DNA from: an uncultured Leifsonia sp.
GTDB lineage: Bacteria; Actinomycetota; Actinomycetes; Actinomycetales; Microbacteriaceae
Length of the DNA stretch: 33,423 bases
Direction: 5' to 3'
NCBI RefSeq assembly: GCF_945957465.1
Contig: NZ_CAMFLC010000038.1
Location: forward strand, 1 to 33,423
Position 1 is the first letter of the stretch, and every line of letters starts with the position of its first letter. Under the pieces are notes generated by a model. The model saw nothing but the letters and a program-made list of their open reading frames with translations. It made no database searches and was not told the origin of the DNA. Shown here piece by piece: positions 3,945-32,435 of the stretch. Position numbers and translations under genes: made by a program.

Positions 3945-3976
3945 TGCTGGCTCCTCAGGTTCGTTCTCGCCGTATC

Positions 3977-3990
3977 TATGCAAACGCATA
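3977..3990. promoter_or_regulatory. Palindromic operator candidate upstream of the monooxygenase pair
   Basis: TATGC-AAAC-GCATA is a perfect 5-bp inverted repeat inside an AT-rich island (ATGCAAACGCATATAAC) that stands out in GC-rich DNA. It lies 33 bp upstream of the monooxygenase ATG, where a repressor could block RNA polymerase. On the minus strand TATAT-like sequence overlaps it. No regulator gene is adjacent, so the binding protein is unknown. Confidence 0.4.
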
Positions 3991-4070
3991 TAACGCGACA
4001 GTGCCTCGAGTATTCCCGGACAGCCCCATCATGGACCTGCGCGCGGTGCGGGCGCCGCGCGAGCGCGAAA

Positions 4071-4110
4071 ACGGGCGCACCCCGAGCCCGAAGGCTCGAG
4101 ATGCGCCCGT
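4071..4110 (-). terminator. Rho-independent terminator of the RCC1-like gene
   Basis: ACGGGCGCA pairs perfectly with TGCGCCCGT (9 bp), and an inner CGAGC/GCTCG stem closes around CCGAAG. Reading the minus strand, the hairpin is followed at once by TTTTCGCGC. It lies 45 bp after the stop codon of the gene at 4155-5789. The outer stem sequence closely matches the terminator at 5958-5998. Confidence 0.8.
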
Positions 4111-4154
4111 GCGCAGACGAAGGTCGGCTCTGGCTGCCGACCGTCAGTGTGCGG

Positions 4155-5789: not shown

Positions 5790-5957
5790 AGGTTTCCTCA
5801 GATGTGGCAGGTTTGGGGACTGTGTACTCCTCCGTAAAATGTAAAATGAGTTCTGCTGACTAGGGGTTGGATCGACGAGATGAGGGGACGCCCTAGTCCG
5901 TCGTGAGTAGTGGAGCCGGGGTGTCTCATCGCTGAAGGCTTCGGGCCGGATGTGAAA

Positions 5958-5998
5958 ACGGGCGCGCCTCGAGCCGCAGAGACTCGAGGCGCGCCCGT
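5958..5998 (-). terminator. Strong rho-independent terminator, perfect 16-bp stem
   Basis: ACGGGCGCGCCTCGAG (5958-5973) and CTCGAGGCGCGCCCGT (5983-5998) are perfect reverse complements around a 9-nt loop. On the minus strand the stem is followed by TTTTCACATCC. It lies 16 bp after the stop of the gene at 6014-7459 and separates it from the RCC1-like gene. Confidence 0.88.
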
Positions 5999-6013
5999 GG
6001 ATGGCCGAATCGA

Positions 6014-7459
6014 TCAGGCCGAGGGAGCAACCCCGATGATCCAGTTGCCCGCCCAATAGGAGTTGTGCGCGGTGAACCCGCTCGCGCCCTTGATCAACTC
6101 GTACGTGCCATACGCGGGCTTCGAGTCGGCGGCGTTCCACGAGTATGTGAAGTAGACGTCGCCGGACGCGGTCCGAGCGGTCCACGTCCCGGAGCCGATG
6201 ACGACGTCGACGACTTGGCCCTCGGGAATGCCCGCTTTGCGGTAGAAGGGACCGTTGTACGACTGGTACGCGTTTCCGTCGGTGCCGATCGCGTGACGAT
6301 AAACCGAGTCGCCCTCGTAGGTGACGTAGTAGGCGAGAGGAACAGGGCAGCTGACCTTGGTCCACGCTCCTGTCTGGCTGGCCGCGCTAGCGTAGTAGAA
6401 GTTGCCGTCGGCGTCCAGCAGGTTCCAGCGCGTACACTCGACCGTCACCTGCTTCACGACTGTTCCAGCCGGGAGGCCCTGCATGTGCTTCACGAAGGGG
6501 ACCATGCCGATGGATGTGTAGACATGGCCGTCCGTGCCCTTCGCGATGACATATCCGTGGTCGTCGAACGGGTATGCCTGGAAGTCGGCGGCCTTGACAC
6601 CGGGAAGCTGCGTCCACTTCGCCGCGGAGCCGACGGATTTCGCGGAGTTGTAATAGATGTCGCCGTCGGCGGTCCGGACGAACCAGCGGCCACCTCCGCA
6701 CGAGATCTGCACGATGTCGGCCACCCCGGGGGTGGCGACGAAGGTCTTCGCGTCATTCATCTGGTAGTAGGTGCCGTCGACACCGAGCGCCGCGGCGTAC
6801 GCGCCGTTGTTCGGCCGGACTTCGAGCTGTGCGATCTTGCCGGGCGCCTTGGCGGCGGTGTACGTGTCCGGGGTTGCAACCGTGGTGGAGGCGGCGCCGA
6901 TGACGTATGCCACGCCGTCTTGGAGGGCCCAGTAGTATCCCGAGCCGACCAAGACCTGCTGAGCGTCAGAGATGCCGACGTCGCTCATCTTCCAGCCGCT
7001 GGCGGCTTTGGTGGCCGTGTAGAGGGCCATTCCCGTCACCTGGATCGTGATGGTCGCGGTGAGATTCAGCGCAGGGATGGTGGCCGTGATGACGTAGGTG
7101 CCGGGCGTGGCCGGTGCCTTCGCGGTGACGACCGCCTCTCCGAGAGCGTCGGTCACCGTCGAATTGCCCGACGGGAAGGTAAATCCGCCGGAACCGGAGG
7201 AGAACACGGTCGACTTGCTCGAGACGGCGGTGCCCATGAGCGTCGCCACGACATCGAAGGTCGCATTGACGGGGACCTTCGGGTTGGCATCGAGGGTGAG
7301 GGCGTTGGTGGGGGAGGTCGACGCAGCCGCGGCCGGAGAGGCGACGGACAATGCGATCGCGGGCGCTGCCCACGCGGCAGTGCCGAGGACGGTGCGTCGG
7401 GAGAGGGAGGGTGTCTTCTCCGGCGCCGAGGCGCCGTTGGGTTCGAATTCCTGATTCAT
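6014..7459 (-). CDS. Secreted twin-arginine protein with Ig-like domain and tryptophan/tyrosine-rich repeats
   Basis: A 481-residue exported protein without a recognised function. Residues 1-47 are a twin-arginine signal (R21-R22, SRRTVLGTAAWAAPAI, then SPAAAAS) almost the same in design as that of the RCC1-like protein. Residues about 48-140 resemble a bacterial Ig-like or invasin-type beta-sandwich (ATIPALNLTATITIQVTG ends it). The remainder has repeats of about 45-50 residues built around short strands such as YYWALQDGVAYVIGA, RWFVRTADGDIYYNS and HAIGTDGNAYQSYNG, like tectonin or BNR-type propellers. The ATG at 7459 has no strong ribosome binding site. Ig domain plus propeller suggests cell-surface or secreted carbohydrate or protein binding; this is inference. 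Confidence 0.8.
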   Translation of the reverse strand: MNQEFEPNGASAPEKTPSLSRRTVLGTAAWAAPAIALSVASPAAAASTSPTNALTLDANPKVPVNATFDVVATLMGTAVSSKSTVFSSGSGGFTFPSGNSTVTDALGEAVVTAKAPATPGTYVITATIPALNLTATITIQVTGMALYTATKAASGWKMSDVGISDAQQVLVGSGYYWALQDGVAYVIGAASTTVATPDTYTAAKAPGKIAQLEVRPNNGAYAAALGVDGTYYQMNDAKTFVATPGVADIVQISCGGGRWFVRTADGDIYYNSAKSVGSAAKWTQLPGVKAADFQAYPFDDHGYVIAKGTDGHVYTSIGMVPFVKHMQGLPAGTVVKQVTVECTRWNLLDADGNFYYASAASQTGAWTKVSCPVPLAYYVTYEGDSVYRHAIGTDGNAYQSYNGPFYRKAGIPEGQVVDVVIGSGTWTARTASGDVYFTYSWNAADSKPAYGTYELIKGASGFTAHNSYWAGNWIIGVAPSA

Positions 7460-7711
7460 TTCGGAGTCTTTAGCTTTCGGGGGAGGGGTTCTCGATCAAC
7501 AACAATGTGACATTGGTACTCACAGTTCCAAGGCAAGGCTAACACGAAAATGCTTGAGGTAAAACGCTACATTTCTCAAGTTCGCGGGAGCTCTATCGTC
7601 ACGGCCCATTTGATATGTCGCATGCCGTGTTTTCACAGGTCACTGTGAGAACCTGGCTGTTGTGGCGCGGCCGACGGCGCGACGGCCACACCCGACAGAG
7701 AGGCGAGAGCG
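7460..7711. promoter_or_regulatory. AT-richer divergent promoter region with several inverted repeats
   Basis: This 252-bp gap lies between two divergent genes and is clearly lower in GC than its surroundings. It holds TGTGA-N9-TCACA (7506-7524), CTTGAG-N16-CTCAAG (7553-7558 with 7575-7580) and GTTTTCACAG-GTCA-CTGTGAGAAC (7629-7652, 9 of 10 bases paired). The TGTGA/TCACA elements do not have the 6-bp spacing of Crp/GlxR sites, so no known regulator is assigned. Promoters for both flanking genes must lie here, but no clear -35/-10 pair could be fixed. Confidence 0.45.
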
Positions 7712-9847
7712 TTGGCCGCACAAGACCCGACTCAGAACCACCCCGGACCTCAGTCCCGGCCGCGACGGCTTGCGGCGGCTGCGGGCTTTCTCGGGCTCAG
7801 TGCGACTGCCGGCGTGCTCATCAGCGCGCTGGTGGCACCGGTCGTCGCCGTCGCGGGCGTCGCAGCGGAGACGGGCGTCCAGCTCTTCGAGACGATGCCG
7901 GAAGCCCTGACCCCCGACGCGCTCGCGCAGACGACGGATATCTACGCGAAGAACGCGGCCGGCGAGCCGGTGCTGCTGGCCTCGGTCTACGAGCAGAACA
8001 GGAAGAACGTGCCGTGGGAGGCGATCTCCCTCTTCGCGAAAGACGCCGTGGTGTCGACAGAGGACCCGCGGTTCTATCGGCACGGCGGAGTCGACGTCAC
8101 CTCGGCGGTCCGGGCCGCGATCGGCAACGCCGCCTCCGGCGAGGTCGGCTCGGGCGCATCGACCATCTCGATGCAGTACGTCAAGAACATTCTCGTGCAG
8201 CGGGCCGAGGCCATCCGCGACAAGGACGAGCGGGAGGCCGCCTATGAAGAGGCCGTGAAGACGAGCCTGGACAGGAAGCTCCGTGAGATGCGTCTCGCGA
8301 TCAGCCTCGAGAAGAGCCTTACCAAACAGCAGATCCTGCTCGGCTACCTCAACATCGCGCACTTCGGCGGTTCGGTCTACGGCATCCAGGCGGCGGCGGA
8401 GTACTACTTCGGCGTGAACGCGTCCGACCTCACGCTCGCGCAGGCCGCCTCGCTCGTCGCGATGGTCAACGAGCCGAACGGGCTGCGCATCGACGACCCG
8501 GACAACATCGGCGACAACACGTTCCGTCGCGACAACGACGTCCTCCCGGCCATGCTCAAGCAGCGCACCATCACGCAGGCGCAGTACGACGAGGCCATCG
8601 CGACCCCGGTCGAGCCGAAGATCACACCGCCCTCCACCGGCTGCCACGCCGCGAACCCGCTCGGGGCCGGCTTCTTCTGCGATTACGTGCAGCGCGTCAT
8701 CGAGAACGAGAAGGTCCTCACCGACCCGAAGGACGCGAATTACAGCACGCTGACACGCGGTGGCTACGACATCTTCACGACACTCGACCTCGACCTCCAG
8801 GCCGCGGCCGTGAGCGCGGTCGACGAGTACGTTCCGCGCAGCACGGATGTGCTCGACATCGGCTCGTCCCTCGTCACCGTCGAGCCGGGTACCGGAAAGA
8901 TCCTCGCGATGGCCCAGAACAAAGACTTCAACGCCGACCCCGACGCGGCGTCCGCGGGCAACACGGCTATCAACTACGGAGCCGACTACGACTACGGCGG
9001 ATCAAGCGGCTTCCAGGCGGGATCGACATACAAGGTCTTCACGCTGGCCGAGTGGCTCAAGGACGGACGGTCGCTCAGCGACCCGGTCAACGGGGATGCA
9101 CGGCCACTCAACCTGTCCACCTTCAAGGACAGCTGCCAGGGCACGGGTTCCGGTTCGTACTCCCCGAAGAACGACGGAGCGCAGCGCCCCGGCACCATGT
9201 CGGTGCGGGCGGCCACGGCGGGGTCGGTCAACGGCGCGTTCTTCTCGATGGCCCAGAAACTGGACCAGTGCGAGATCCGCAAGACGGCGGAGGCCTTCGG
9301 ACTCAAGCGCGCCGACGGCAAGGAGCTGACGTCCTACGTTTCGGACGTGCTCGGCACCAATGAGGTGTCACCGGTACGGATGGCCTCCGCATTCGCGGCC
9401 ATCGCCAACAAAGGCGTGTACTGCTCGCCGATCGCGATCGAGCGGATCGTGGCGCCGGACGGATCGGATGTGCCGGTTCCGCAGAGTGCGTGCTCCGCGG
9501 CGGTCGCGCCGGAAGTCGCCGCCACAATGGCGTCGGCTCTCGAGAGCGTGATCACCGGAGGCACCGGGAGCGCCTCCAACCCGCGCGACGGCGTGCCCGT
9601 CTTCGGAAAGACCGGCACGACGGACTCCGAGAAGGACACCTGGTTTGTCGGCGCGACCACGACGCTGGCGACGGCTGTCTGGGTGGGCAATGTCACGGGC
9701 GGCGTCTCGCTGCGGCGGTCGAAGGTGGGAGGTATCCAAGCCGACACCCTCCGCCACCGGGTGTGGAAGCAGTACATGACCGCGGCGAACGCCCGGTTCC
9801 CCGGCGGCGGCCTGCCCGAGGCGGTGTCCCGCCCGGTACGGGACTGA
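7712..9847 (+). CDS. Class A penicillin-binding protein (bifunctional glycosyltransferase/transpeptidase)
   Basis: A 711-residue membrane-anchored peptidoglycan synthase. Residues about 20-50 form the membrane anchor. The GT51 domain shows EDPRFYRHGG with the catalytic Glu at 117, and GASTISMQYVKN (148-159). The transpeptidase domain has the SxxK serine motif S438-TYK, SVN (505-507) and KTG (633-635). It polymerises lipid II and cross-links the stem peptides outside the membrane. The reading begins at a TTG at 7712 preceded by a GAGAGGCGAGAG purine-rich stretch; no ATG exists before the membrane segment, which supports this start. A palindrome at 7629-7652 lies in its promoter region. It is a single gene; the EamA gene follows after 56 bp and is probably independent in function. 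Confidence 0.95.
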   Translation: MAAQDPTQNHPGPQSRPRRLAAAAGFLGLSATAGVLISALVAPVVAVAGVAAETGVQLFETMPEALTPDALAQTTDIYAKNAAGEPVLLASVYEQNRKNVPWEAISLFAKDAVVSTEDPRFYRHGGVDVTSAVRAAIGNAASGEVGSGASTISMQYVKNILVQRAEAIRDKDEREAAYEEAVKTSLDRKLREMRLAISLEKSLTKQQILLGYLNIAHFGGSVYGIQAAAEYYFGVNASDLTLAQAASLVAMVNEPNGLRIDDPDNIGDNTFRRDNDVLPAMLKQRTITQAQYDEAIATPVEPKITPPSTGCHAANPLGAGFFCDYVQRVIENEKVLTDPKDANYSTLTRGGYDIFTTLDLDLQAAAVSAVDEYVPRSTDVLDIGSSLVTVEPGTGKILAMAQNKDFNADPDAASAGNTAINYGADYDYGGSSGFQAGSTYKVFTLAEWLKDGRSLSDPVNGDARPLNLSTFKDSCQGTGSGSYSPKNDGAQRPGTMSVRAATAGSVNGAFFSMAQKLDQCEIRKTAEAFGLKRADGKELTSYVSDVLGTNEVSPVRMASAFAAIANKGVYCSPIAIERIVAPDGSDVPVPQSACSAAVAPEVAATMASALESVITGGTGSASNPRDGVPVFGKTGTTDSEKDTWFVGATTTLATAVWVGNVTGGVSLRRSKVGGIQADTLRHRVWKQYMTAANARFPGGGLPEAVSRPVRD

Positions 9848-9903
9848 ACGCGTCGTCCGATTCGCGCCGGTAGGCCGTCGGCGGTGGGCAGTAGCCTCGA
9901 CGG

Positions 9904-10806
9904 GTGAAGGTCGCTCTGCAGTTCATCGCCATGGGCCTCGTCTGGGGTGCCAGCTTCCTGTTCATGAAAGTGGCGCTCGAGGGCGTCGCCTTCGGTCAGG
10001 TGGCATGGGCTCGGCTGATCTTCGGTGCGGTGACGCTCGGGATCATCGTGCTCGCCACCCGAAGCCGCCTTCCGCGGCAGCCCATCGTGTACCTCCACTT
10101 CGTGGTCGTGGCGATCACCTACTGCGTGGTTCCGTTCCTCCTGTTCGCCTGGGCCGAGCAGTACGTGTCATCGAGCCTCGCGAGCATCTACAACGCCGTC
10201 ACGCCGATCACGACGGCGATCCTCGCGACCGCCGCTTTCCGGGTGGAGAGGCTCAACCGTGACCAGGTGCTCGGCGTGCTCGTAGGAGTCGTTGGCGTGG
10301 TCGTCGTGGTCGGCCCCTGGTCGATCGCGGCGCTCTCCGGAAGCGTGTGGGGACAGCTGGCGTGCCTCGGCGCCGTGACCTGCTACGGCTTCAGCTTCGG
10401 CTACATCCGGCGCTTCATCAGCCACCGGGACATCCCCGCCACCACCGTCGCGTTCCTCAACATCGGGCTCGCGGCGGCGATCATGCTCGTGCTCACGCCG
10501 GTCGTGGCACTCTCGCCGATCAGGTTCAGCTGGCCTGTGCTGCTCAGTCTGCTCGCGCTCGGAGCCCTCGGGACCGGCGTCGTCTACATCTGGAACATGA
10601 ACGTGCTGCGGGCCTGGGGTCCCACGGCGACCTCCGGGGTGACCTATGTGACGCCGGTGGTCGGAGTCGCGCTCGGCATCCTCGTGCTCGGCGAACATCT
10701 GAGCTGGAACGAGCCCGTCGGCGCGGTGATCGTCCTCGCCGGGATTCTGCTCACGCAGCAGCGCGTCCGTCTCTTCACGCGCCGACAGGCCGACCTCGTC
10801 ACGTGA
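9904..10806 (+). CDS. EamA (DMT superfamily) permease
   Basis: A 300-residue inner-membrane protein with about ten hydrophobic helices arranged as two repeated EamA domains (about residues 3-140 and 150-290). Typical features are MGLVWGASFLFMK at the N-terminus, the SSLASIYNAVTPITTAIL segment that ends the first repeat, and the matching SGVTYVTPVVGVALGILVLGE in the second. Members export amino acids or other metabolites, but the substrate cannot be deduced from sequence. The start is a GTG at 9904. It is convergent with purL, whose stop lies 22 bp away. Confidence 0.9.
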   Translation: MKVALQFIAMGLVWGASFLFMKVALEGVAFGQVAWARLIFGAVTLGIIVLATRSRLPRQPIVYLHFVVVAITYCVVPFLLFAWAEQYVSSSLASIYNAVTPITTAILATAAFRVERLNRDQVLGVLVGVVGVVVVVGPWSIAALSGSVWGQLACLGAVTCYGFSFGYIRRFISHRDIPATTVAFLNIGLAAAIMLVLTPVVALSPIRFSWPVLLSLLALGALGTGVVYIWNMNVLRAWGPTATSGVTYVTPVVGVALGILVLGEHLSWNEPVGAVIVLAGILLTQQRVRLFTRRQADLVT

Positions 10807-23021: not shown

Positions 23022-24038
23022 ATGTCCCCTGAAGGACTCATCACGAGCGAGTTCGACGACGCCGCGATCATCGACGCCGACATCGCTGCTCCCGCCGACG
23101 ACCTCGATGACCTGGCCGACCTGGAGGTCGTGGTGCTCGACCTCACGGGGACGACCGTGGTCGACGACGGGCTGGTCGAGCGCGCGTTCGAGCGTGCGGC
23201 CGATGCTGCGGGCATCGCCGGGATGGACGACGAGCTCGACCGCGCCGTCGCGTTCCTTCAGGCGAGCGCCGGCCGATCGACGATCGCGGTCTTCCGCGCC
23301 CTCAGTGACGACGAGGACCAGGCTCAGCACGCCGCCGCCGTCTTCGAGTCCGCCTACGCCGAGCTCGCCTCCCACGGCGGCGTCCGGGCCGTAGCGGGAG
23401 CCGAGGAGCTCATCCGCCGGTTGCGCGCCATCGGTGTCTCGGTCGTGCTGACCGCCGGCCTCTCGCGCGCCACGACCGACGCGGTGCTTGCCGCCGTGGG
23501 CTGGCGCGGGCTCGCCGACCTCACCCTCACTCCCGAGGATGCAGGCCGCGGCGGACCCTATCCCGACCTCCCGCTGACGGCGCTGCTGCGTGTCGGCGCG
23601 TCGAGCGTCGACGGAATGGTCGTCGTCGGCGACGCCACGGCCGATGTCGCCGGCGGCCTGGCCGCCGGAGCGGGCCTCGTCGTCGGTGTGCTGACCGGGT
23701 CGGACGACGAGCGCGCACTCTCCGAAGCCGGCGCCGACGCCGTGGTGGCGAGCGTCGCCGACCTCGGCGAACTGCTGGGCCTGGAGGCGCTGGAGGGCCC
23801 CGACGCGCTGGAGGGCCTCGACGCGCTGGAGGGCGCGGACCGCCTCGACGACGTCGATGACGACGACGATGACGAATACGAGGAGTACGCCGACGTCGAC
23901 GAGGTGACCGACGTGGACGAGCCGGACGCCGACGGAGCCGACTTCAGCGACCTGGACGCGCTCCGCGACGCGGGGGACGTCGATGATCTCGACGAGACGG
24001 GCGCAGACGACCGGCCGGAGGGGCAGACGCTGCGGTGA
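23022..24038 (+). CDS. Phosphonatase-like HAD hydrolase with acidic tail
   Basis: A 338-residue haloacid-dehalogenase protein of the TIGR03351 phosphonatase-like type. Motif I is VVVLDLTGTTVVDDG with nucleophile Asp40, motif II LTAGLSR (Thr144), motif III GRGGPYPDL (Arg176), motif IV VGDATAD (203-208). The protein contains no lysine at all, so it cannot form the Schiff base that true phosphonoacetaldehyde hydrolase (PhnX) uses; it more likely cleaves a phosphate ester or an unactivated product. An acidic N-terminal extension (residues 1-33) and a very acidic C-terminal tail of about 90 residues are unusual. The tail begins with three 18-bp repeats at 23781-23834. Its TGA overlaps the next GTG. 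Confidence 0.85.
   Translation: MSPEGLITSEFDDAAIIDADIAAPADDLDDLADLEVVVLDLTGTTVVDDGLVERAFERAADAAGIAGMDDELDRAVAFLQASAGRSTIAVFRALSDDEDQAQHAAAVFESAYAELASHGGVRAVAGAEELIRRLRAIGVSVVLTAGLSRATTDAVLAAVGWRGLADLTLTPEDAGRGGPYPDLPLTALLRVGASSVDGMVVVGDATADVAGGLAAGAGLVVGVLTGSDDERALSEAGADAVVASVADLGELLGLEALEGPDALEGLDALEGADRLDDVDDDDDDEYEEYADVDEVTDVDEPDADGADFSDLDALRDAGDVDDLDETGADDRPEGQTLR
23781..23834 (+). repeat. Three in-frame 18-bp tandem repeats in the HAD tail
   Basis: Units at 23781, 23799 and 23817 each encode a variant of LEALEG, PDALEG and LDALEG, the last two being nearly identical at the DNA level (gacgcgctggagggc core). They mark the start of the acidic extension and suggest growth by slippage. Confidence 0.85.
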
Positions 24039-25198
24039 CGATCAAGGCAGTGACCCCACGCGTCGTCGAGCCGCCGGCGAGCCTGGGCATGGGGGTGAGC
24101 GTGTATCCGTCGGCCACCGCGATGGTGTGGCCGGGCCCGGGGCACACGCACGAAGCGGTCGCGGTTCCCGGCGTCCGGCTGGCGCCAGGCGACGCCCTGG
24201 TGGAGGTGGAGCTCGCGACGGTCTGCGGATCCGACGTCGAGACCGTCCTGGGCCGCCACGCGGCCTCCACCCCGCTGGTGCTGGGCCACGAGCAGGTGGG
24301 TCGCGTGATCGCGCTCGGCCGCGGCGGCGCCAAGACGACCGACGGCAAGCGGGTGGCGCTCGGCGAACGCGTCGTCTGGTCTGCGGCCGTTCCCTGCGGC
24401 CGGTGCGCGCGGTGCCGGCGTGGCGTACCGCAGCAGTGCATCAGCCTCCAGAAGTACGGGCACGAGCGCATGCGCCGCGGGTGGGAACTGTCGGGCGGCT
24501 TCGCGACCCACACGCACATCCTCGACGGCACTCCCCTCGTCGCGGTGCCGGAGCACCTGCCCGCCGAAGTGCTCGCGCCCGCGTCGTGCCCCACCGCGAC
24601 CGTGGCCGCCGCCCTCGAGGCGGCAGCGGCGATCGTGCCGCTCGAGGGCGCGCTGATGGTGATCGCGGGCGCGGGAATGCTCGGGCTGACCGCCGCGGCG
24701 ATGGCGACGCAGGCCGGAGCGAAGGTCGTCGTGAGCGACCCGGTCGCCGAACGCCGCGACACGGCGCTGCTGTTCGGCGCGGTGGCGGTGGCCGACCCCG
24801 CCGCCGCGCCGGGCTCCCGTTCCGGGCTCCCGCACGCGCTGACCAAGGCCGGAGGCCGCGCATCGGCGCCGTCCATCGCACTCGAGTTCTCGGGGACGGA
24901 GTCGGCCGTGCGCTCGCTGCTCTCGGTCGTCGACATCGGCGGCGTGCTCGTGCTCGCCGGGTCGGTGTCGCCCGGCCCCGAACTGCCGGTCGTTCCCGAC
25001 GTGCTGGTGCGCCACCTCCTCACCATTCGCGGCGTCCACAACTATGCGCCGCGGCACCTGGAGCGGGCCGTCGGCTTCCTCGCCGGTCACGGCACCACAT
25101 ACCCGTTCGCGCAACAGGTCGGCGCCGTGTTCCCGCTCGCCGAAGTGGACGCGGCGCTGGCGAGCGGCGGGTTCCCGCGGGTGGCGGTGCGGCCGTAG
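24035..25198 (+). CDS. Zinc-dependent alcohol dehydrogenase, phosphonate-associated type (TIGR03366-like)
   Basis: A 387-residue medium-chain dehydrogenase. Catalytic zinc ligands are Cys64 (VCGSD), His85-Glu86 (LGHEQVG) and probably Cys185; structural zinc ligands are Cys121, 124, 127 and 135 (PCGRCARCRRGVPQQC). The NAD(P)-binding glycine motif GAGMLG is at 212-217. The family is recurrently found with TIGR03364 oxidoreductases and phosphonatase-like hydrolases, and should oxidise or reduce the alcohol/aldehyde product of the pathway. Its GTG overlaps the HAD stop by 4 nt, so the two are translationally coupled. It converges on rsgA with only 7 bp between stop codons and no visible terminator. 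Confidence 0.88.
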   Translation: MTIKAVTPRVVEPPASLGMGVSVYPSATAMVWPGPGHTHEAVAVPGVRLAPGDALVEVELATVCGSDVETVLGRHAASTPLVLGHEQVGRVIALGRGGAKTTDGKRVALGERVVWSAAVPCGRCARCRRGVPQQCISLQKYGHERMRRGWELSGGFATHTHILDGTPLVAVPEHLPAEVLAPASCPTATVAAALEAAAAIVPLEGALMVIAGAGMLGLTAAAMATQAGAKVVVSDPVAERRDTALLFGAVAVADPAAAPGSRSGLPHALTKAGGRASAPSIALEFSGTESAVRSLLSVVDIGGVLVLAGSVSPGPELPVVPDVLVRHLLTIRGVHNYAPRHLERAVGFLAGHGTTYPFAQQVGAVFPLAEVDAALASGGFPRVAVRP

Positions 25199-25205
25199 CC
25201 GGGGG

Positions 25206-26237
25206 CTAATGTCCGCGAACCTTGCGGAACTCTCTCGCCATGCGGGAGTACTCGACCGATTTGTCCCGTCGCTGTGAGGGACCGGAGTCGAGTTCTTTGA
25301 GGTAGGCAAGAAACCGCCGGTATCGGTCGACCGGGATATCGCCGCGCTCGACCGCGTCGCGGAGGGCGCAACCGGCGTCGCGCGTGTGCCGGCAATCGCT
25401 GAACCGGCACGCGGCCGACACATCCCAGACGTCCTCGAAGAGTTGCCCGAGCGCACCGACGGAAGCGATGCCGATCTCCCGAATGCCAGGAGTGTCGATC
25501 ACGGAGCCGCCGATACCGGGGAGGGGGTAAAGCGTTCGTGCCGTGGTCGTGTGCCTCCCCTTCGAGTCGCGCTCCCGTACAGCACCGACGTCGGCGCGGG
25601 CGTCCTCGAGCAGCCAGTTCAGCAGCGTCGACTTACCCACGCCGGAGTGCCCGATCAGCATCCCCGTTCGCCCGTCGGACAGCGCCGCGGCCAGGTCATC
25701 GCGGCCGAGATTCGCTGTGGCCGAGACGAACGACGCGTCGATTCCCGGGGCGGCGAGCGTGATGGCAGCTTCGATCTCGGCGCGTCGCTGGGTGGAGGCG
25801 AGATCGCACTTCGTGACGACGAAATGGGGTGCCGCCTGGGTGTCCCATCCCACGGTCGCCAGCCGCTCGATCAGGCCGACGCGATGAGCGTTCCGGACAT
25901 CCACGACCAGCAGGGTCACGTCCACATTCACGCCGAGGAGCTGTGGCGTGCCATCACCGCGGACGCGGACGACCTCGTTCGCGCGTTCGAGACGGTTGGC
26001 GACCTCACCCTTCTCGTCGAGCCACACCCAGTCGCCCACCGCGAGGCCTGGATCCGAGCGCGTCGTCGACTCGACGGAGTCGGTTCGCAGGACGAGAGCG
26101 GAAGCGCGATCGATGCGGACGATGCGGGCGAGTGCACCTCCTGGGGCAGGCCCGGCCGAGGACGCGCGACGCCGAACGTCGTCCGTGCAGCCGAGAGTTC
26201 GTGCGTAAGGGCCCATGTCGTTGATCGACTCAGTCAC
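25206..26237 (-). CDS. rsgA: RsgA-type circularly permuted GTPase, last gene of the peptide operon
   Basis: A 343-residue GTPase of the RsgA (YjeQ) family, which acts in late 30S subunit maturation. An N-terminal OB-fold (ALARIVRIDRASALVL) is followed by the permuted G motifs in the order G4 TKCD (142-145), G1 GHSGVGKST (196-204), G2 GRHTT, G3 DTPG (248-251), then the zinc site Cys277, Cys282, His284, Cys290. All functional residues are present. It starts at a GTG overlapping the M16 peptidase stop by 4 nt. The usual actinobacterial rsgA lies next to aroA, so this is probably an additional copy. In this operon it may give ribosome-linked immunity or control; that is inference. Confidence 0.9.
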   Translation of the reverse strand: MTESINDMGPYARTLGCTDDVRRRASSAGPAPGGALARIVRIDRASALVLRTDSVESTTRSDPGLAVGDWVWLDEKGEVANRLERANEVVRVRGDGTPQLLGVNVDVTLLVVDVRNAHRVGLIERLATVGWDTQAAPHFVVTKCDLASTQRRAEIEAAITLAAPGIDASFVSATANLGRDDLAAALSDGRTGMLIGHSGVGKSTLLNWLLEDARADVGAVRERDSKGRHTTTARTLYPLPGIGGSVIDTPGIREIGIASVGALGQLFEDVWDVSAACRFSDCRHTRDAGCALRDAVERGDIPVDRYRRFLAYLKELDSGPSQRRDKSVEYSRMAREFRKVRGH

Positions 26238-27481
26238 GAGGGATCCTCTGCGGGGAACGCCGCATGCGTAAGAATCTCCGTCTCGTTCTCGAGCATGCTC
26301 GCGGCCAGGGAAGCGACGTCCGTGGTACGCACCGAGCGGATCAGCCGAAGCAGGTCATCGAGCCGTGGGACGTGCCCCAGATAGTGGATCGACGAAGCGA
26401 GCGACCGGAGCCTCCCAACCTGATCGGCATGCGCTATCTCCGTGGAGCACGCTACATGGCGGATGGCATACTCGAGCTGCTCGTGCGAGAACCCGGATGA
26501 AGCGACCTTCTCCAGCACGACTCGAATCCGCGACAGCACTTCGTCCGCCCGGTCGGCGGACGTGGAAGCACTGATGGTCAGCATGCCGCTTGTGCCGAAG
26601 CCCGTGTAGAACGCCCGCGGCGAGTAGACCAACTGGTTGTCGACCCGGAGCTCGGAGACCAGCAGCGATGCGAAGCCGCTGGCCAGCAGCGCCGCGAGCA
26701 CGACCGCGCGAACCCTCGTACTGTGGCCTGCGGCCGGGGCGTGAAACGCCCAGACGACCGGTGAGAGGGTGGCATGCTCGCCGCCGCGGACGGCCACCGA
26801 ACGCTTCGGCTTCGCGTCAGAGCGCGGAGCCGGGGCCGGTCGGTCGAGGTTCGTGGAGGGCCGAGTTCCGAACGCCTCGCAGACCAGAGGCAGCAGCTCC
26901 CGGTGGCGCCGTGGTCCGACGATGCAGAGGTCCATGTTCGCCGGGCGGTAGTTCGCTGACCAGTACGCGGCGACCTGTCCGCCATTCAACCGCGCGATGT
27001 CGAGGTGCGTGCCGCCCGGAGCGAGCGCGAGGGGCGTGCCCTGGAATAGTCGTGACTCCGCCGTCTGCAGTGCCGCGCGCTCGATGTGGTGTCGAATACC
27101 ACTGAGCTCGGCGAGCACGGTTCGCTTCTCCGCATCCAATCGTGCGCGCGTCATGTCCGGTCGAGACAACGCCCCGCGAAATGCCCGGAGGGCGAAGGCC
27201 AGGTCGGAACTGCGGACGCGCACTGTGTACTCGGTCGAGTCCTTCCCCGTCACAGCCATCGGCTGAGCTCCGACCGTGTCGAAGTCGGATGCGAGGCCCG
27301 TGCGTGAGTCTTCCGAGCCTCGTGCCAGCGTCAGATGCTCCACCAGGTGAGCGGCTCCGCGCGTGTGCTCACCTTCCACCGCGGAACCAGCGCGCACCGC
27401 GAGACTGATCGCATCCACCGGAAGGTTCGGCATGCGGGCGGAAGCGAAGCGCATTCCATTCGTGAGCGTGGTGATCGGCAC
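26234..27481 (-). CDS. M16 family zinc metallopeptidase
   Basis: A 415-residue insulinase/processing-peptidase-type protein with both halves in one chain. The inverted zinc motif HLVEH (His45, Glu48, His49) and the distal ligand Glu125, 76 residues later, are intact. The second half has the substrate-binding RVDNQLVYSPRAFY region. Peptidases of this family trim small peptides in other peptide systems, for example AlbE/AlbF for subtilosin and PqqF for PQQ. No signal peptide is seen, so it should act in the cytoplasm on the operon's own precursor or degrade it. The GTG at 27481 has GGGAG upstream. It lies 10 bp after permease 2 and overlaps rsgA by 4 nt. Confidence 0.9.
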   Translation of the reverse strand: MPITTLTNGMRFASARMPNLPVDAISLAVRAGSAVEGEHTRGAAHLVEHLTLARGSEDSRTGLASDFDTVGAQPMAVTGKDSTEYTVRVRSSDLAFALRAFRGALSRPDMTRARLDAEKRTVLAELSGIRHHIERAALQTAESRLFQGTPLALAPGGTHLDIARLNGGQVAAYWSANYRPANMDLCIVGPRRHRELLPLVCEAFGTRPSTNLDRPAPAPRSDAKPKRSVAVRGGEHATLSPVVWAFHAPAAGHSTRVRAVVLAALLASGFASLLVSELRVDNQLVYSPRAFYTGFGTSGMLTISASTSADRADEVLSRIRVVLEKVASSGFSHEQLEYAIRHVACSTEIAHADQVGRLRSLASSIHYLGHVPRLDDLLRLIRSVRTTDVASLAASMLENETEILTHAAFPAEDPS

Positions 27482-27491
27482 GAGACTCCCG

Positions 27492-28277
27492 TCAGTAGAG
27501 GTCGAGTGCGTCGCGCCTCTTGGCGACCCGCTCGAACAGCTTCATCAGCACGAGAGCGACAGCGACCCAGACCGCCGCGACGCAACCCTCGAGCGCGACC
27601 GAGACCAGCGCCGTCCGAACCGTCTCCCCATCGAGCATCGCCCTCACCGCATCGATGGCGTGAGTGGTGGGCAGCGCGTCTCCCAGGATCCGCGTCCACT
27701 CGGGCAGCGTCGAGCGATCGATGTTCGCGCCGGAGACCACCATCGTCAGCAGGTACGCCGCCGTGGCGATCTGAAAGATGTCGCGATAGGCAAGACCGCA
27801 CGCGCTCAGGGCGAGCCCCATCGCGGAGCACGACACCGCCGCCACGATGATCGCCAGCATGTAGAGAAGAAGCTGGGGCGGATCGAGTGGCCGAGAGACG
27901 AGCGCCAGCCCTACCACGGAGGTCAGCGAAGCCACGATGAAACCGCAGACGACGCCGGGGAGCATCCGACCGACGAAGACGGCGACCCGGGAGCCGGGGG
28001 AGCCCAGCACCATGCTGAGCGTCCCGAACCGGCGCTCGTCGGCGATCACACTGACCATTCCGGCTATTCCGGCCGTCGCGGCGACTTGGATGCCGTTGCC
28101 GACGATGAAGAAGGCCGGGTCCTGATAGGCGAGAGCCTGTCCCAGCGCCACGAAGAACAGGATCTGCAGCGTCGGCGTCAGCAAGAGCGACGTCACGAAC
28201 AGCCCCGGTGTGTTCCAGGCGAAGAGCGCGCGGAAGCCGAGCAATCCCGAGATCCCGATCGTACGCAGAGGTGTCAT
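27492..28277 (-). CDS. ABC-2 type permease, second membrane subunit
   Basis: A 261-residue integral membrane protein with about six hydrophobic helices. It begins MTPLRTIGISGLLGFRALFAW, and has the ABC-2 cytoplasmic coupling segment ADERRFGTLSMVLGSPGS and the GLALSACGLAYRDIFQIATA region usual in drug and peptide exporters. The ATG at 28277 overlaps the stop of permease 1 by 4 nt; open reading frame further upstream is not coding. With the other permease and the ATPase it should form a heterodimeric exporter. The adjacent peptide and peptidase make the peptide the likely substrate. Confidence 0.88.
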   Translation of the reverse strand: MTPLRTIGISGLLGFRALFAWNTPGLFVTSLLLTPTLQILFFVALGQALAYQDPAFFIVGNGIQVAATAGIAGMVSVIADERRFGTLSMVLGSPGSRVAVFVGRMLPGVVCGFIVASLTSVVGLALVSRPLDPPQLLLYMLAIIVAAVSCSAMGLALSACGLAYRDIFQIATAAYLLTMVVSGANIDRSTLPEWTRILGDALPTTHAIDAVRAMLDGETVRTALVSVALEGCVAAVWVAVALVLMKLFERVAKRRDALDLY

Positions 28278-29023
28278 CGCAGTCTGAGGGTCCCTCGCTT
28301 GCGAGCCAGCAGGTCGATTCGACGCATGAGCACCACGCCGACGGCGAGATAGATCATCGAAAGACCCAGAGCGTTCCCGGCTTGGGCGAATGCGGGCTCG
28401 CCTGTCGCAGCGCGGTCGACGACTTCCATCGCCCAACCGAGTGGCAGAAGCTTGCCTGCCGCTGCGATCGGTGGCCAGAGGGTCGCCGCCGGGACGAGCA
28501 CGCCGCACACCAGCCAGATCGGATACTCCATGACGTTCGTGATCTCGATCGCCTTGCGTGTGAGGACGTAGAGTCCGGCCAGGAGCACGCCGATCGACGT
28601 GAGTGAGACGAAGGTCAATGCCAGTCCTCCCGACATCGAGCTCCAGCTCACGCTCTCGAACCCGAGCTGCAGGACGAACCTCGCCCAGAGCCAAGCGGCG
28701 ACCGTGGAGTACGCGCCGAGTGACACCGTCGCGGTGGCGAAGCCCAGGACCGGGGCGACCAGGCTGCGTGGCGAACCAATCAGGAATTCGAGGGTGCCGC
28801 TGAACCGCTGCATGAAGAGTGCCTCGGCAGCACCGAACAGTGTCGTGGACCACGCGCCCATGAGCCCAGCGCCGACCACGATGCGCAGGCTCGCCTGACC
28901 GCCCGCCATGAGCACGGCGATGGAGCAATATGCGATCGGCGTCAGAATCGCCATGCCGACGAAGAACGGCGAACGGGACAGCAGCCTCAGCTGAAGCCAC
29001 CAGGCCGCGAGGTAGAGCCTCAC
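28274..29023 (-). CDS. ABC-2 type permease, first membrane subunit
   Basis: A 249-residue membrane protein with about six helices, paired with the next gene. It shows RLYLAAWWLQLRLLSRSPFF before helix 1, the coupling segment MQRFSGTLEFLIGSPRS, and an amphipathic region ending with AGKLLPLGWAMEVVDRAATG. It starts at a GTG overlapping the ATPase stop by 3-4 nt. It is similar in layout to permease 2 but clearly divergent in sequence, indicating a heterodimeric pore rather than a recent duplication. Confidence 0.88.
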   Translation of the reverse strand: MRLYLAAWWLQLRLLSRSPFFVGMAILTPIAYCSIAVLMAGGQASLRIVVGAGLMGAWSTTLFGAAEALFMQRFSGTLEFLIGSPRSLVAPVLGFATATVSLGAYSTVAAWLWARFVLQLGFESVSWSSMSGGLALTFVSLTSIGVLLAGLYVLTRKAIEITNVMEYPIWLVCGVLVPAATLWPPIAAAGKLLPLGWAMEVVDRAATGEPAFAQAGNALGLSMIYLAVGVVLMRRIDLLARKRGTLRLR

Positions 29024-29979
29024 CTGATTCCCGCCTCGACGATCGAGACGTAGGCGTCTTCGAGCGTGGGCTCCCGGTCGAACGCGCGCCCGATCCGGTT
29101 CCCGTCCATCCGGGAGATGATGTCCGCGACCGACATGTCGCTTTCCGGCTCGAGTCTGACGATCACACGCACGGTGTCGCCGGAACTCGCGTGCTCGACA
29201 GCCGACACCGTCGGAAGAGTGCGGATGAGGCTGATCGCCTCCGCCGGATCGTCGTACGCCTCGACTTCGAGGATGCGCCCCAGGGAGACGTCCGCTTTGA
29301 CCTGTTCCGGTGTGCCCATCCGAAGGATCTCTCCTGAGGAGATGATCGACACCCGGTCGCAGAGCTCGTCGGCCTCCACCATCGAGTGAGTGGCCAGCAG
29401 TATGGTCTTGCCTCGCTCGCGCAGCTCGCCGGCAAGCTCCCGGAGGGCCCGTGCCGCCACCGGATCGAGCCCCGAAGACGGTTCGTCGAGGAAGACGACG
29501 GCCGGGTCGTGGATCAGCGCGCGGGCGATGTGCAGTCTCTGCTTCATGCCGCGCGAGAACGTCTCCACGCGCGCTTTCGACTTGTCGGCCAAGCCGACGA
29601 GTTCGAGCAACTCACTCACTCGACCCCGGATGCGCCGCGGGCTGACGCTGTACAACTGCGCTGCGAACCTCAGGTTGTCGGTGGCGGACAGGCGGTCGTA
29701 CAGTCCACGCTCTCCGCCGAACGCGACTCCGACCTGGCGCCGTACCTCCTTCGCATCGGTGACGACGTCCAGGCCGTTGACGTTCGCCGTCCCCGAGGTC
29801 GGGGTCAGGAGGGTCGCGAGGATGCGCACGAGAGTGGTCTTCCCCGCCCCGTTGGGGCCGAGGATGCCGAATATCTCCGCGTCGGGAATGGAGAGGGTGA
29901 TGCCGCGCAGCGCCTGGACGGTGGGTGCACCTCTGGCTCCCTCATAGCTCCGTGTCAGGTTCGCTATCTCGATCGGCAT
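29020..29979 (-). CDS. ABC transporter ATP-binding protein (exporter)
   Basis: A 319-residue DrrA-like ATPase. Walker A is GPNGAGKTT (41-49), the signature is FSRGMKQR (141-148, a variant of LSGGQ), Walker B is VVFLDEP (161-167) and the switch His is H198. The Q-loop region reads VGVAFGGERGLYDRLSATDN, the pattern of the ABC-2 exporter subgroup. A C-terminal domain of about 90 residues follows. It energises the two permeases downstream. It begins one base after the stop of the helical-repeat gene, so expression is coupled to it. Confidence 0.93.
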   Translation of the reverse strand: MPIEIANLTRSYEGARGAPTVQALRGITLSIPDAEIFGILGPNGAGKTTLVRILATLLTPTSGTANVNGLDVVTDAKEVRRQVGVAFGGERGLYDRLSATDNLRFAAQLYSVSPRRIRGRVSELLELVGLADKSKARVETFSRGMKQRLHIARALIHDPAVVFLDEPSSGLDPVAARALRELAGELRERGKTILLATHSMVEADELCDRVSIISSGEILRMGTPEQVKADVSLGRILEVEAYDDPAEAISLIRTLPTVSAVEHASSGDTVRVIVRLEPESDMSVADIISRMDGNRIGRAFDREPTLEDAYVSIVEAGIR

Positions 29980-29980
29980 C

Positions 29981-31237
29981 TCAGGCTCCTGGCATTTCGG
30001 TGGGCAGCCAGAAATTCGCTGGCAAGGCGGACACCCGCTCGGCGTCCTTCTCTCTTCCGAGTTCGATGTAGCAGCGGATGAGCATCTTCCTCACCTGGTC
30101 GATCACGAACGGGTCGTACTCGGCTCGGAGGCGCTCGTGCGATTCGAGAAGCGGTGGAAGCGCCGCGGCCGGGTCGTCATTCTGGATATGGACATAGGCC
30201 AGAGTCGAGAGAGAGGTGTGCAGCGACCCCGGGTCGTTCTCGCGTGAGAAATCGACCAGGATCGTCAGCTTCTCGATGGCTGAGACAAATGTATGAGCAA
30301 ATATATCGAGTTGGATGAGATTCAGCCTAGCCATCCACTCGTAGCGTCGTGCTTCCTCCGAGCCGATCGCATGCGCGGCGGTGCGGTGGCCGTTGCCCTG
30401 TTCGAAATGCGCGATCGCGCGTGTCACAGCGGCATGTGCGGCCTTCGGATCGCGCCGGCGTACCGCGAGCAGCGCACGGAGGTTCCAGAGCATCCCGAAG
30501 CCGACGGATTTGTCGTCGCGATGCGCCGACGCGTGTGAGAGATCGGAGTCGAGGGCGTCGATCAGGTCTTCGGCCGCATCGATGTTCCCCTGGCGTTTCG
30601 CCCGCAACGAGGCCCAGCGCAGTCCCGCGAAGGTGCGTTCGATCGGATCCGGCATTCCGGCGAGTGCGATTGCGAAGAGATCATCGCTGGCTGCGCTCTC
30701 CCGGCAGAGGCCGAGGACCGAGGCGGCGAGCGCGTACGTCATCGTTTCCCGCTGCGACTCCGCCCCTGCCTTCCGATGGGCGTGTACCGATCGAGCGACA
30801 TCGAGCGCGTCTTCCCAGCTGCCGAACGCATTGACGTACTTCAGCAGGGCGACGTATGCCGCTGCTTCGGATTGGAACGGAACGGAGCGCGTGCGTCTGC
30901 TGATGGACCCGAGGCCGAGGGTCTCGCGAAGCGCCACGGATGTCTCATTCGCGCTGGAGGCTCGATCGAGGTGGTCGGTGAGGGTTCTGCGGAGTTCTGG
31001 CTGCTGAGCGATCAGAGCGTCCACGTTCAGCTCGAACATGGCTCGTGAACTCAGATCGCGTCGGAGGCGCAGGTCGGTCAGCGGGGCATGGTCGCGCCTG
31101 GCCGCGAGGAGGAATGCGTTGCCCTCCAGCGCGACATGACTCATCACGCTCTCGAAACGCGGGTGTACCACGCCGGGAGAGTCCGCCGATGCCGACGCGA
31201 GGAGGTCGGCGACGAAGGCCGTCGTAGTGTCGATCAT
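29981..31237 (-). CDS. Helical (TPR-like) repeat protein of unknown function, partner of the peptide
   Basis: A 418-residue cytoplasmic protein with no recognised enzyme motif, signal peptide or membrane span. From about residue 115 onward it looks like a series of paired helices of TPR type (for example EAAAYVALLKYVNAFGSWEDALDVARSV, split here as repeats with the usual small-residue/Ala pattern; RAKRQGNIDAAEDLIDALDSD; ALLAVRRRDPKAAHAAVTRA; TLAYVHIQNDDPAAALPPLLE). The ATG at 31237 begins MIDTTTAFVADLL; an in-frame GTG at 31291 is less likely. The ribosome binding site is weak, so it may depend on read-through from the peptide gene 67 bp upstream. A TPR protein next to a small peptide recalls Rap-Phr pairs of Firmicutes; a peptide-recognition role is inference. 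Confidence 0.7.
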   Translation of the reverse strand: MIDTTTAFVADLLASASADSPGVVHPRFESVMSHVALEGNAFLLAARRDHAPLTDLRLRRDLSSRAMFELNVDALIAQQPELRRTLTDHLDRASSANETSVALRETLGLGSISRRTRSVPFQSEAAAYVALLKYVNAFGSWEDALDVARSVHAHRKAGAESQRETMTYALAASVLGLCRESAASDDLFAIALAGMPDPIERTFAGLRWASLRAKRQGNIDAAEDLIDALDSDLSHASAHRDDKSVGFGMLWNLRALLAVRRRDPKAAHAAVTRAIAHFEQGNGHRTAAHAIGSEEARRYEWMARLNLIQLDIFAHTFVSAIEKLTILVDFSRENDPGSLHTSLSTLAYVHIQNDDPAAALPPLLESHERLRAEYDPFVIDQVRKMLIRCYIELGREKDAERVSALPANFWLPTEMPGA

Positions 31238-31258
31238 TCGGAAGGCTTTCGCATGGGC

Positions 31259-31289
31259 GAGGGGGCAGCGCGGTTTAAGCCACCCCCTC
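31259..31289 (-). terminator. Hairpin between the peptide and the rest of its operon (attenuator candidate)
   Basis: GAGGGGG (31259-31265) pairs perfectly with CCCCCTC (31283-31289) across a 17-nt loop, 15 bp after the peptide stop. No strong T-run follows. Such a hairpin would let the short message accumulate over the downstream genes, as seen in other peptide operons. Confidence 0.55.
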
Positions 31290-31304
31290 ACTGAAGAGGT
31301 CGGA

Positions 31305-31406
31305 TCAGAACATCGCCGCGCCGTGGTTCCACCCGGCGAAGAGCGAGGCCACGAAGCCCTGCGTGTTGCTCATCTCCGAAACGACTGCGTCGTAGGTCTC
31401 GTCCAT
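31305..31406 (-). CDS. 33-residue precursor or signal peptide, first gene of the operon
   Basis: A small gene supported by a near-ideal ribosome binding site (TGAGGAG, core at 31415-31420, 8 nt before the ATG at 31406) and by its place at the head of a seven-gene export/peptidase operon. The first half (MDETYDAVVSEMSNTQ) carries four acidic and no basic residues. The second half is hydrophobic, with FVASLFAGWN at 18-27 and a single His as its only ionisable side chain. This two-part design is typical of leader and core in ribosomally made peptides. There is no Cys, no double-glycine site and no signal peptide. With no modifying enzyme in the operon, an unmodified or only trimmed product is expected. 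No known peptide family was recognised. Confidence 0.75.
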   Translation of the reverse strand: MDETYDAVVSEMSNTQGFVASLFAGWNHGAAMF

Positions 31407-31823
31407 GCGAATGACTCCTCAGTGTTGTCGACGACCGAAGGCGGACACCCCGGTTCCTCGACCGTAGGAGGGCGGATCGCGCCGACCGGATCGAATGGAG
31501 AAAGGGACGTAGCTGCGACGCGGAGTCACGTGAACCAACCGCCCGATTCGCGGGACTTACTGTTCTAGTTCGAGGGTGTCGACGAGTTCGCCTGGTTGTA
31601 GTGCGAAGCACGGCCTGATCGTTCCCGAGTGTTCTCGCATGTTCGGTTCCGCAGCCTGGGATCCGCCCGACCGTGAGGACTCCCGTGATCGGGACCTCTG
31701 TCGCCCCGACCACCTCCCAGGCCCCAGCCGACGACCACCCGCGCCCGCCGGAGCCGCCGTCACCTCGGATGCCGCTGCGGCACCGCACTGACCTTCGCCG
31801 CGGAGCCGTGCCAGGCTGGAGGC
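31407..31823. other. 417-bp divergent intergenic region
   Basis: This gap must hold the promoter of the peptide operon (minus) and of the glycosylase-fold gene (plus). Apart from the peptide ribosome binding site at 31415-31420, no convincing -35/-10 pair, hairpin or RNA gene was found. A 27-codon minus-strand frame (31557-31640) is present but lacks a good ribosome binding site. Confidence 0.5.
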
Positions 31824-32435
31824 GTGTCCGAAGACCCGCTCGCCCGCTTCTTCGACCTGCTGCGCGCGCTCCCCGAGCCGGTGGACGCCGAGGCCCTCTA
31901 CGGCGACGACGCCGAGGGGCGCCGACGCGAGCGCAACCTGCGCCGCTATTTCGCGATGCCGCGCGCCTCCGTGCTGTTGCTCGGCGAGGCGCCGGGATGG
32001 CGGGGGATGACGGTGACGGGCGTGCCGTTCGTGTCCGCACGGGAGGCCGATGCCGGCGTGGTGCCGGGGCTCGAACTGCCCGAGCATCCGCAGGCGCCGT
32101 GGGAGGCCTCCAGTCGTGTCGTGTGGGCGACCCTGCGCCAGTGGAAGGGGCCGATCCCGCTGTCGTGGCCGGTGTATCCGCTGCACCCGTTCGTCGCGGG
32201 CGACCCGCGCAGCAACCGCACGCCGCGGCCGGCCGAAGTGCGCGCCGGGGCGCCGGTCGCGCTCGAGCTGATCCGTGCGCTCCGCATCGAGACGGTGGTC
32301 GCCGTCGGGCGCAAGGCGCAGGGGGCGATCGCGTCGGCCGGGCTCGGGGCGCCGGCGATCCGGCACCCCGCCCAGGGTGGGGCCGCGTTGTTCGCCGAGC
32401 AGCTGCTCGAGCTGAACCGGAGTGGTCGGCTCTGA
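31824..32435 (+). CDS. Uracil-DNA-glycosylase-superfamily protein
   Basis: A 203-residue protein of the uracil-DNA glycosylase fold. VLLLGEAPGWRGMTVTGVPF (50-69) is the superfamily motif I region (GEAPGxxG...G.PF), and VAVGRKAQGAIASAG followed by IRHPAQGG is the second active-site loop (HPS-like). It may excise uracil or act on another damaged base, but the family is varied and several branches have no proven activity. The GTG at 31824 is supported by immediate onset of coding character. It is divergent from the peptide operon and 112 bp before the padR gene. Confidence 0.78.
   Translation: MSEDPLARFFDLLRALPEPVDAEALYGDDAEGRRRERNLRRYFAMPRASVLLLGEAPGWRGMTVTGVPFVSAREADAGVVPGLELPEHPQAPWEASSRVVWATLRQWKGPIPLSWPVYPLHPFVAGDPRSNRTPRPAEVRAGAPVALELIRALRIETVVAVGRKAQGAIASAGLGAPAIRHPAQGGAALFAEQLLELNRSGRL

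Follow-up and report, generated by a model that had tools for sequence, protein, structure and literature searches.

What could a gene for a peptide of 33 amino acids (aa) be doing at the head of an operon that also encodes a transporter, a peptidase and a second copy of a ribosome-assembly GTPase? The question is raised by a contig of an uncultured Leifsonia sp. (NZ_CAMFLC010000038.1, assembly GCF_945957465.1), whose positions 1 to 33,423 are here called the window; it is contig C38 of a 4.06-Mb genome, labelled G000 in the comparisons below. Seven minus-strand frames follow one another in the order peptide, tetratricopeptide repeat (TPR)-like protein, ABC ATPase, permease 1, permease 2, M16 peptidase and RsgA GTPase (Table 1). 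The reading that we favour, giving it slightly less than an even chance, is that they form a mobile cassette that would make, bind and export a short peptide, with RsgA giving ribosome-side self-protection. A first-pass annotation, made from the letters of the window without database searches, had placed these genes on one strand, and our re-reading of the sequence agrees with it in position and packing: from TPR to RsgA there are a 1-nt gap (TPR/ATPase), two 4-nt overlaps (ATPase/permease 1 and permease 1/permease 2), a 10-nt gap (permease 2/M16) and another 4-nt overlap (M16/RsgA), so that no junction exceeds 10 nt.

Then, is the small frame a real gene? It has no match in Pfam or NCBIfam, and neither the peptide nor the TPR-like protein falls into a named family above its cut-off. 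Among 28 genomes of the genus, however, the TPR-like protein finds matches in five (G000, G025, G019, G014 and G018), and a peptide profile finds the same five with E values no higher than 2e-19, the remaining matches starting at E 0.07. It should be noted that the profile was made from these five peptides, whose own scores are high by construction; the weight rests on their identical position, directly upstream of the TPR gene in all five operon-bearing congeners, and on the lack of a match in the other congeners. The peptides are MDETYDAVVSEMSNTQGFVASLFAGWNHGAAMF in the window, MNENYDEIVAEMSDAQGFVASLFAGWNHGAAMM in G025, MNYDEITVEMSNEQGYIATLFAGWNHGAAMY in G019, MTEFDLDSISKEMNDGQGFVATLFASWAHAMKM in G014 and MEHSYEDIVAEMQDPQGFVASLFAGWNHGAAMF in G018. 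Their core codons show a mean pS of 0.47 against a pN of 0.19 (10 non-independent pairs), while the DNA upstream aligns poorly, with 9 of 325 columns invariant, three of which are the ATG, and with no clear shared element and no sigma-70 site. As judged from the sequences, purifying selection acts on the peptide, and its 33-aa frame is a genuine gene. The first-pass annotation had staked its view on the frame being neither missing nor unconserved in homologous operons; checked there, it is kept. The peptide contains no Cys, and its N-terminus is by eye acidic rather than signal-like, with no Sec-type signal.

TPR-profile searches were extended to the order (396 genomes), to the family that includes G716 (221) and to that of the window (398). 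They added four genomes (G716, G1145, G116 and G269), as well as 13 from another family, termed f20. Upstream of the TPR gene, G716 has a frame ending in ...TFASTLSAWAHQSPR, G1145 one ending in ...TFAVIPAGWNHGAKI (its start codon being uncertain) and G116 the frame MSVETIKAELKESDETVRDLSMPWAH; 11 of the 13 f20 loci have a frame of 34 aa, e.g., MEPMNVDQIVAWLKLNPQLRVAECLAAWTHGDIR, and the other two, L061 and L067, have no such peptide. Aligned over 31 columns, the genus and f20 peptides give an hhalign P of 1.2e-6 and a probability of 90.8, both profiles being shallow, and all these peptides share a W-x-H at or near the C-terminus, 0 to 5 residues before the stop. A class-level search with the TPR-like protein touched 14 of 394 genomes including its own; the other 13 matches were partial (E 3.6e-9 to 8.7e-6) and were taken as generic TPR proteins. 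A scan of the genome contigs likewise gave one poor match of 24% identity, which was set aside, and plasmids gave no match to the TPR-like protein and five weak records for permease 1. An in-frame TGA stands close to the start of the G716 TPR gene (L075, about 3590-4750) and could reflect a disruption, a later start or a sequence error.

The f20 loci show the pair in a different company. The next gene encodes receiver and LuxR-type domains (scanned in two proteins, and recognized by eye from the N-terminal sequence in 10 of 13 loci), and in the larger loci that were read (L076, L077 and L079) the pair has no exporter nearby. This trio looks like a chromosomal peptide-sensing locus, and the peptide-TPR pair is, on these comparisons, the most widely recurring part, even without an exporter. 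Two rival explanations meet here. In the main one, to which we allow a real but modest chance, the peptide is a pheromone that would be exported, re-enter the cell and be sensed by the TPR-like protein as a Rap/RRNPP-like receptor without a DNA-binding domain, with M16 maturing or destroying the signal and RsgA as a regulated output. Rap proteins of Bacillus act on response regulators, and the receiver/LuxR-type gene behind the f20 pair is in keeping with this; a conserved C-terminus would also suit a signal. In the second, which seems distinctly unlikely, the peptide is an intracellular microprotein, a subunit or regulator of the TPR-like protein, and the transporter exports another compound. 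This would fit the f20 pair without an exporter, where the peptide gene runs into, or right up to, the start of the TPR gene (L070 and L072) and the peptide is conserved over its whole length; it sits poorly with an operon that has no biosynthetic enzymes for another cargo, and with the hairpin described below, which suggests unequal amounts of the two products.

Which parts, then, accompany the pair where an exporter is present? Nine exporter-type loci were compared, namely the five of the genus together with G716, G1145, G116 and G269. The ATPase and two permeases occur in all nine, in G1145 on another contig, and the peptide in eight; in G269 the TPR, ATPase and permease genes are present but no W-x-H frame was found within 600 nt upstream. 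RsgA occurs in six, that is, four congeners, G716, where it directly follows permease 2, and G1145, whose contig C10 opens with ABC-permease-permease-RsgA across a contig break from the peptide and TPR genes. In G116 the contig stops about 250 nt past permease 2, and its genome has a single RsgA match, as has a sister genome. Between the peptide stop and the TPR start, the eight peptide-bearing loci have stems of 11-18 contiguous pairs that differ in sequence. The window stretch folds at -26.2 kcal/mol (z -2.39, 5 of 200 shuffles as good), and dinucleotide shuffles of six loci gave z from -1.30 to -4.09, L011 being weak with 17 of 200 as good; L098 and L128 were only folded. The first-pass annotation had allowed a longer TPR protein from GTG 31291, which is the first base of this hairpin, and the ATG at 31237 (418 aa) is therefore preferred.

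The order of short frame, hairpin, exporter and ribosome factor could also call to mind a ribosome-stalling attenuator, in which the small frame would act as leader peptide and control an antibiotic-resistance exporter with RsgA. The hallmarks of such a device, a U-run terminator and a competing antiterminator, were not found: the window stretch has no U-run terminator, and in eight loci the pairing between the 5' arm of the hairpin and the coding region of the peptide is no stronger than that obtained with shuffled sequences (17-54 of 100 as good; the L075 coding stretch was slightly out of register in this test). In addition, the distance from W-x-H to the stop varies, and the f20 peptides are homologous yet have neither hairpin nor exporter. 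Consequently, we consider the attenuator very improbable.

Just as the f20 arrangement speaks most strongly for signalling, the recurrence of RsgA speaks most strongly for an effect linked to the ribosome. The window protein scores 129.5 bits against RsgA_GTPase (cut-off 30) and 139.4 bits against TIGR00157 (cut-off 100), contains GHSGVGKST, DTPG, TKCD, GRHTT and a zinc knuckle CX4CXHX5C, and matches solved RsgA structures (6h4d, E 2e-32). Every one of the 28 congeners has one RsgA at 138-155 bits, and a second above the cut-off is found in four, all of them operon copies from the four genomes with the full operon. G716 has two RsgA matches, and G1145 has three versus two in each of two sister genomes. 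In a midpoint-rooted tree of 24 proteins, nine non-housekeeping copies separate from the housekeeping ones (100/100), the four operon copies of the genus group together (97/91), and those of G716 and G1145 C10 form a group (99/95) beside three chromosomal non-operon copies. A basic tail at the C-terminus distinguishes the operon copies from the housekeeping ones. The motifs of the operon copies are mostly intact: of six operon-type proteins, one (G014) departs from the strict G1 pattern and two (G019 and G1145) from TKxD. The operon RsgA is thus, by tree and copy number, an accessory that recurs and that belongs to a lineage other than the housekeeping one. We also found genomes of genus g171 with a second chromosomal RsgA of the operon-copy lineage and no peptide operon (L144:1222-2475, L143:1132-2310 and L149 near 9232-10278).

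Is the peptide matured? The M16 protein scores 60.8 bits against Peptidase_M16 and 97.5 bits against M16_C, and its zinc site is intact, as had been claimed: all four operon copies keep HxxEH, the Glu located 76 residues past the second His, and the R/Y pair without change. Only four of the 28 genus genomes have a second M16 above the cut-off, exactly those with an M16-bearing operon. By gene content M16 is an optional part of the cassette, being present in four of the nine exporter-type loci. The earlier proposal was an exported, matured peptide antibiotic or signal; an exported peptide remains the most economical reading, be it the one or the other. As for modification, none of the seven genes encodes a radical SAM, YcaO, Lan or lasso enzyme according to Pfam and NCBIfam scans, which bears out the first-pass annotation for the window. 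In the related locus of G116, a 2OG-Fe(II) oxygenase gene (L128:275-955; 33.1 bits against a cut-off of 27) stops 36 nt short of the peptide gene and is a possible modification or maturation enzyme. The transporter genes scored 104.9 bits for ABC_tran and 63.3 and 28.8 bits for ABC2_membrane (cut-off 26.9). In PADLOC the ABC protein gave only unspecific ATPase matches and five other query proteins none, the peptide being left out of the query.

The TPR-like protein is less readily classified, since Pfam TPR families are reached only below their cut-offs. TPR repeats are common peptide-binding scaffolds. A structure predicted from the single window sequence has a mean pLDDT of 53.5; its best matches are proteasome and eukaryotic TPR chains, and kinesin light chain, LGN, Rpn6 and Rap/NprR receptors are also among them. 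Such a poor model is weak evidence for a helical-repeat fold and for nothing beyond it, and the Rap structures among its matches would speak for the pheromone at the low confidence of the model. By sequence, RapH compares with the protein at E 0.65, which is not significant.

How does the operon come to be where it is? In the window (24035-32435) and in G025 (L010:3685-12625), which belong to two species, it occupies one and the same site, flanked by ADH and UDG genes, in opposite orientations, and in G019, G014 and G018 it is found at other chromosomal places. For 21 of the 25 UDG loci of the genus, ADH lies within 1.5 kb and no operon gene was detected; in two of the 25 neither was seen. The patchy occurrence and the several chromosomal sites make a horizontally mobile cassette the best reading of these gene maps. 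In L010 an additional small membrane-protein frame lies between the peptide and ADH.

Based on these comparisons, the favoured cassette would work as follows. The hairpin would leave the peptide in excess over the other operon proteins, the TPR-like protein would bind it around W-x-H as a chaperone or regulator, and the ABC-2 transporter would export it; M16, where present, would trim the acidic N-terminal half or degrade stray peptide, and the RsgA copy would protect the 30S ribosome assembly of the producer, in which case the peptide would be a ribosome-directed bacteriocin. A bolder version, which we regard as rather unlikely, is that of a new W-x-H peptide family hitting the small ribosomal subunit or RsgA itself, with the operon RsgA as immunity, the TPR-like protein as peptide holder and the G116 oxygenase as maturation enzyme.

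Several points weigh against the favoured cassette. The f20 pair, with its response regulator and without an exporter, suits signalling better. The C-terminal half is the most conserved part of the peptide, unlike many RiPP (ribosomally synthesized and post-translationally modified peptide) families, in which the core varies, and the seven window genes scanned include no modification enzyme. In G018 neither M16 nor RsgA follows permease 2, so neither is needed everywhere. The operon RsgA has TKVE for TKxD in G019 and GKSA in G014, and copies of the same lineage stand outside any such operon in G1145 C90, G1143 and G1147; the lineage is therefore not tied to self-protection. The G+C content of the operon bins (0.635-0.687) is below that of the nearest flanks (0.717-0.756), but as a sign of transfer this was set aside, since window bins 3001-10000 are equally low (0.643-0.680); the low G+C is not decisive.

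Table 1. Positions of the operon features in the window.
Feature	Position	Strand	Basis
33-aa precursor-type peptide, MDETYDAVVSEMSNTQGFVASLFAGWNHGAAMF	31305..31406	-	Conservation in congeners, homology to f20 peptides, purifying selection
Shine-Dalgarno-like GAGGAG ahead of the peptide	31415..31420	-	Read from the sequence
Intercistronic hairpin with 13-bp stem in the peptide/TPR gap	31257..31291	-	Folding and shuffles; analogous stems in seven other loci
TPR-like protein, 418 aa, proposed peptide-binding partner	29981..31237	-	Homologues in congeners and other families; low-confidence helical-repeat model
ABC transporter ATPase (DrrA-like)	29020..29979	-	Pfam/NCBIfam
ABC-2 permease 1	28274..29023	-	Pfam
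ABC-2 permease 2	27492..28277	-	Pfam
M16 zinc peptidase, active and C-terminal domains in one chain	26234..27481	-	Pfam, zinc site
RsgA-type GTPase, second copy (housekeeping gene on contig C51)	25206..26237	-	Pfam/NCBIfam, copy counts, tree

Elsewhere in the window, two adjacent secreted-looking frames (4155-7459) have similar twin-arginine-like N-termini, SRRTVLGTAAWAAPAIALSVASPAAAAS and TRRAVVGAAAWTAPAIVMAVASPAAAAS, and a phosphatase-like frame (23022-24038) has a long Asp/Glu-rich C-terminal tail.

With a lineage-separate second RsgA accompanying a peptide exporter, it becomes testable whether a ribosome-assembly GTPase can serve as peptide immunity, which few systems allow; if true, it would mark a class of bacteriocins or RiPPs defined by self-resistance through ribosome biogenesis. 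The peptide-TPR pair, joined by an exporter in some lineages and by a response regulator in one other, would in turn be a candidate peptide-receptor pair outside Bacillota. Literature searches on RsgA with RiPPs, self-resistance or bacteriocins, on actinobacterial TPR/peptide systems and on M16/ABC/TPR clusters gave, by title and abstract and with subscription journals largely uncovered, no cassette of peptide, TPR, ABC-2 and RsgA. As weak context, the berninamycin section of PMC9290621 tabulates protein-synthesis hit genes, and rsgA appears there once.

Among known systems, the RRNPP and Rap-Phr pairs of Bacillota are alike in placing a small propeptide gene beside a TPR protein, and the f20 relatives add the response regulator. 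The accessible text of PMC10075063 describes a propeptide of 10-100 aa next to a receptor of 250-500 aa with TPRs, and export by Sec or PptAB. Here the peptide has 33 aa with the TPR gene directly beside it, and the 418 aa of the TPR-like protein lie inside these limits, its repeats being suggested by sub-threshold Pfam matches and the low-confidence model; this adjacency, too, favours the pheromone. The cassette differs in its dedicated ABC-2 exporter, its RsgA and its phylum, as read from gene content, and has no significant Rap sequence match and, by eye, no Sec-type signal. Class V lanthipeptide clusters (cacaoidin, lexapeptide and pristinin) likewise combine a small precursor with ABC or ABC-2 transporters, which, in the portions available of PMC8068269 and PMC7794033, adjoin the M16 proteins Cao15, LxmP1/LxmP2 and SprP, proposed as leader peptidases; this published pairing speaks for the favoured cassette. 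However, Pfam and NCBIfam find none of their dehydration, cyclisation or decarboxylation enzymes in the seven genes, the peptide is unrelated, and RsgA and this TPR family are not among the cluster genes described in those portions. In subtilosin-type sactipeptides (alb genes), one operon combines a short peptide with an M16 peptidase and an exporter; their radical SAM enzyme is absent from the operon studied here, whose peptide is without Cys. Finally, the cassette GTPase shares with RsgA/YjeQ/EngC the circularly permuted GTPase motifs and the zinc knuckle, and differs in being a second copy, in an apparently mobile operon, of a lineage apart from the housekeeping one.

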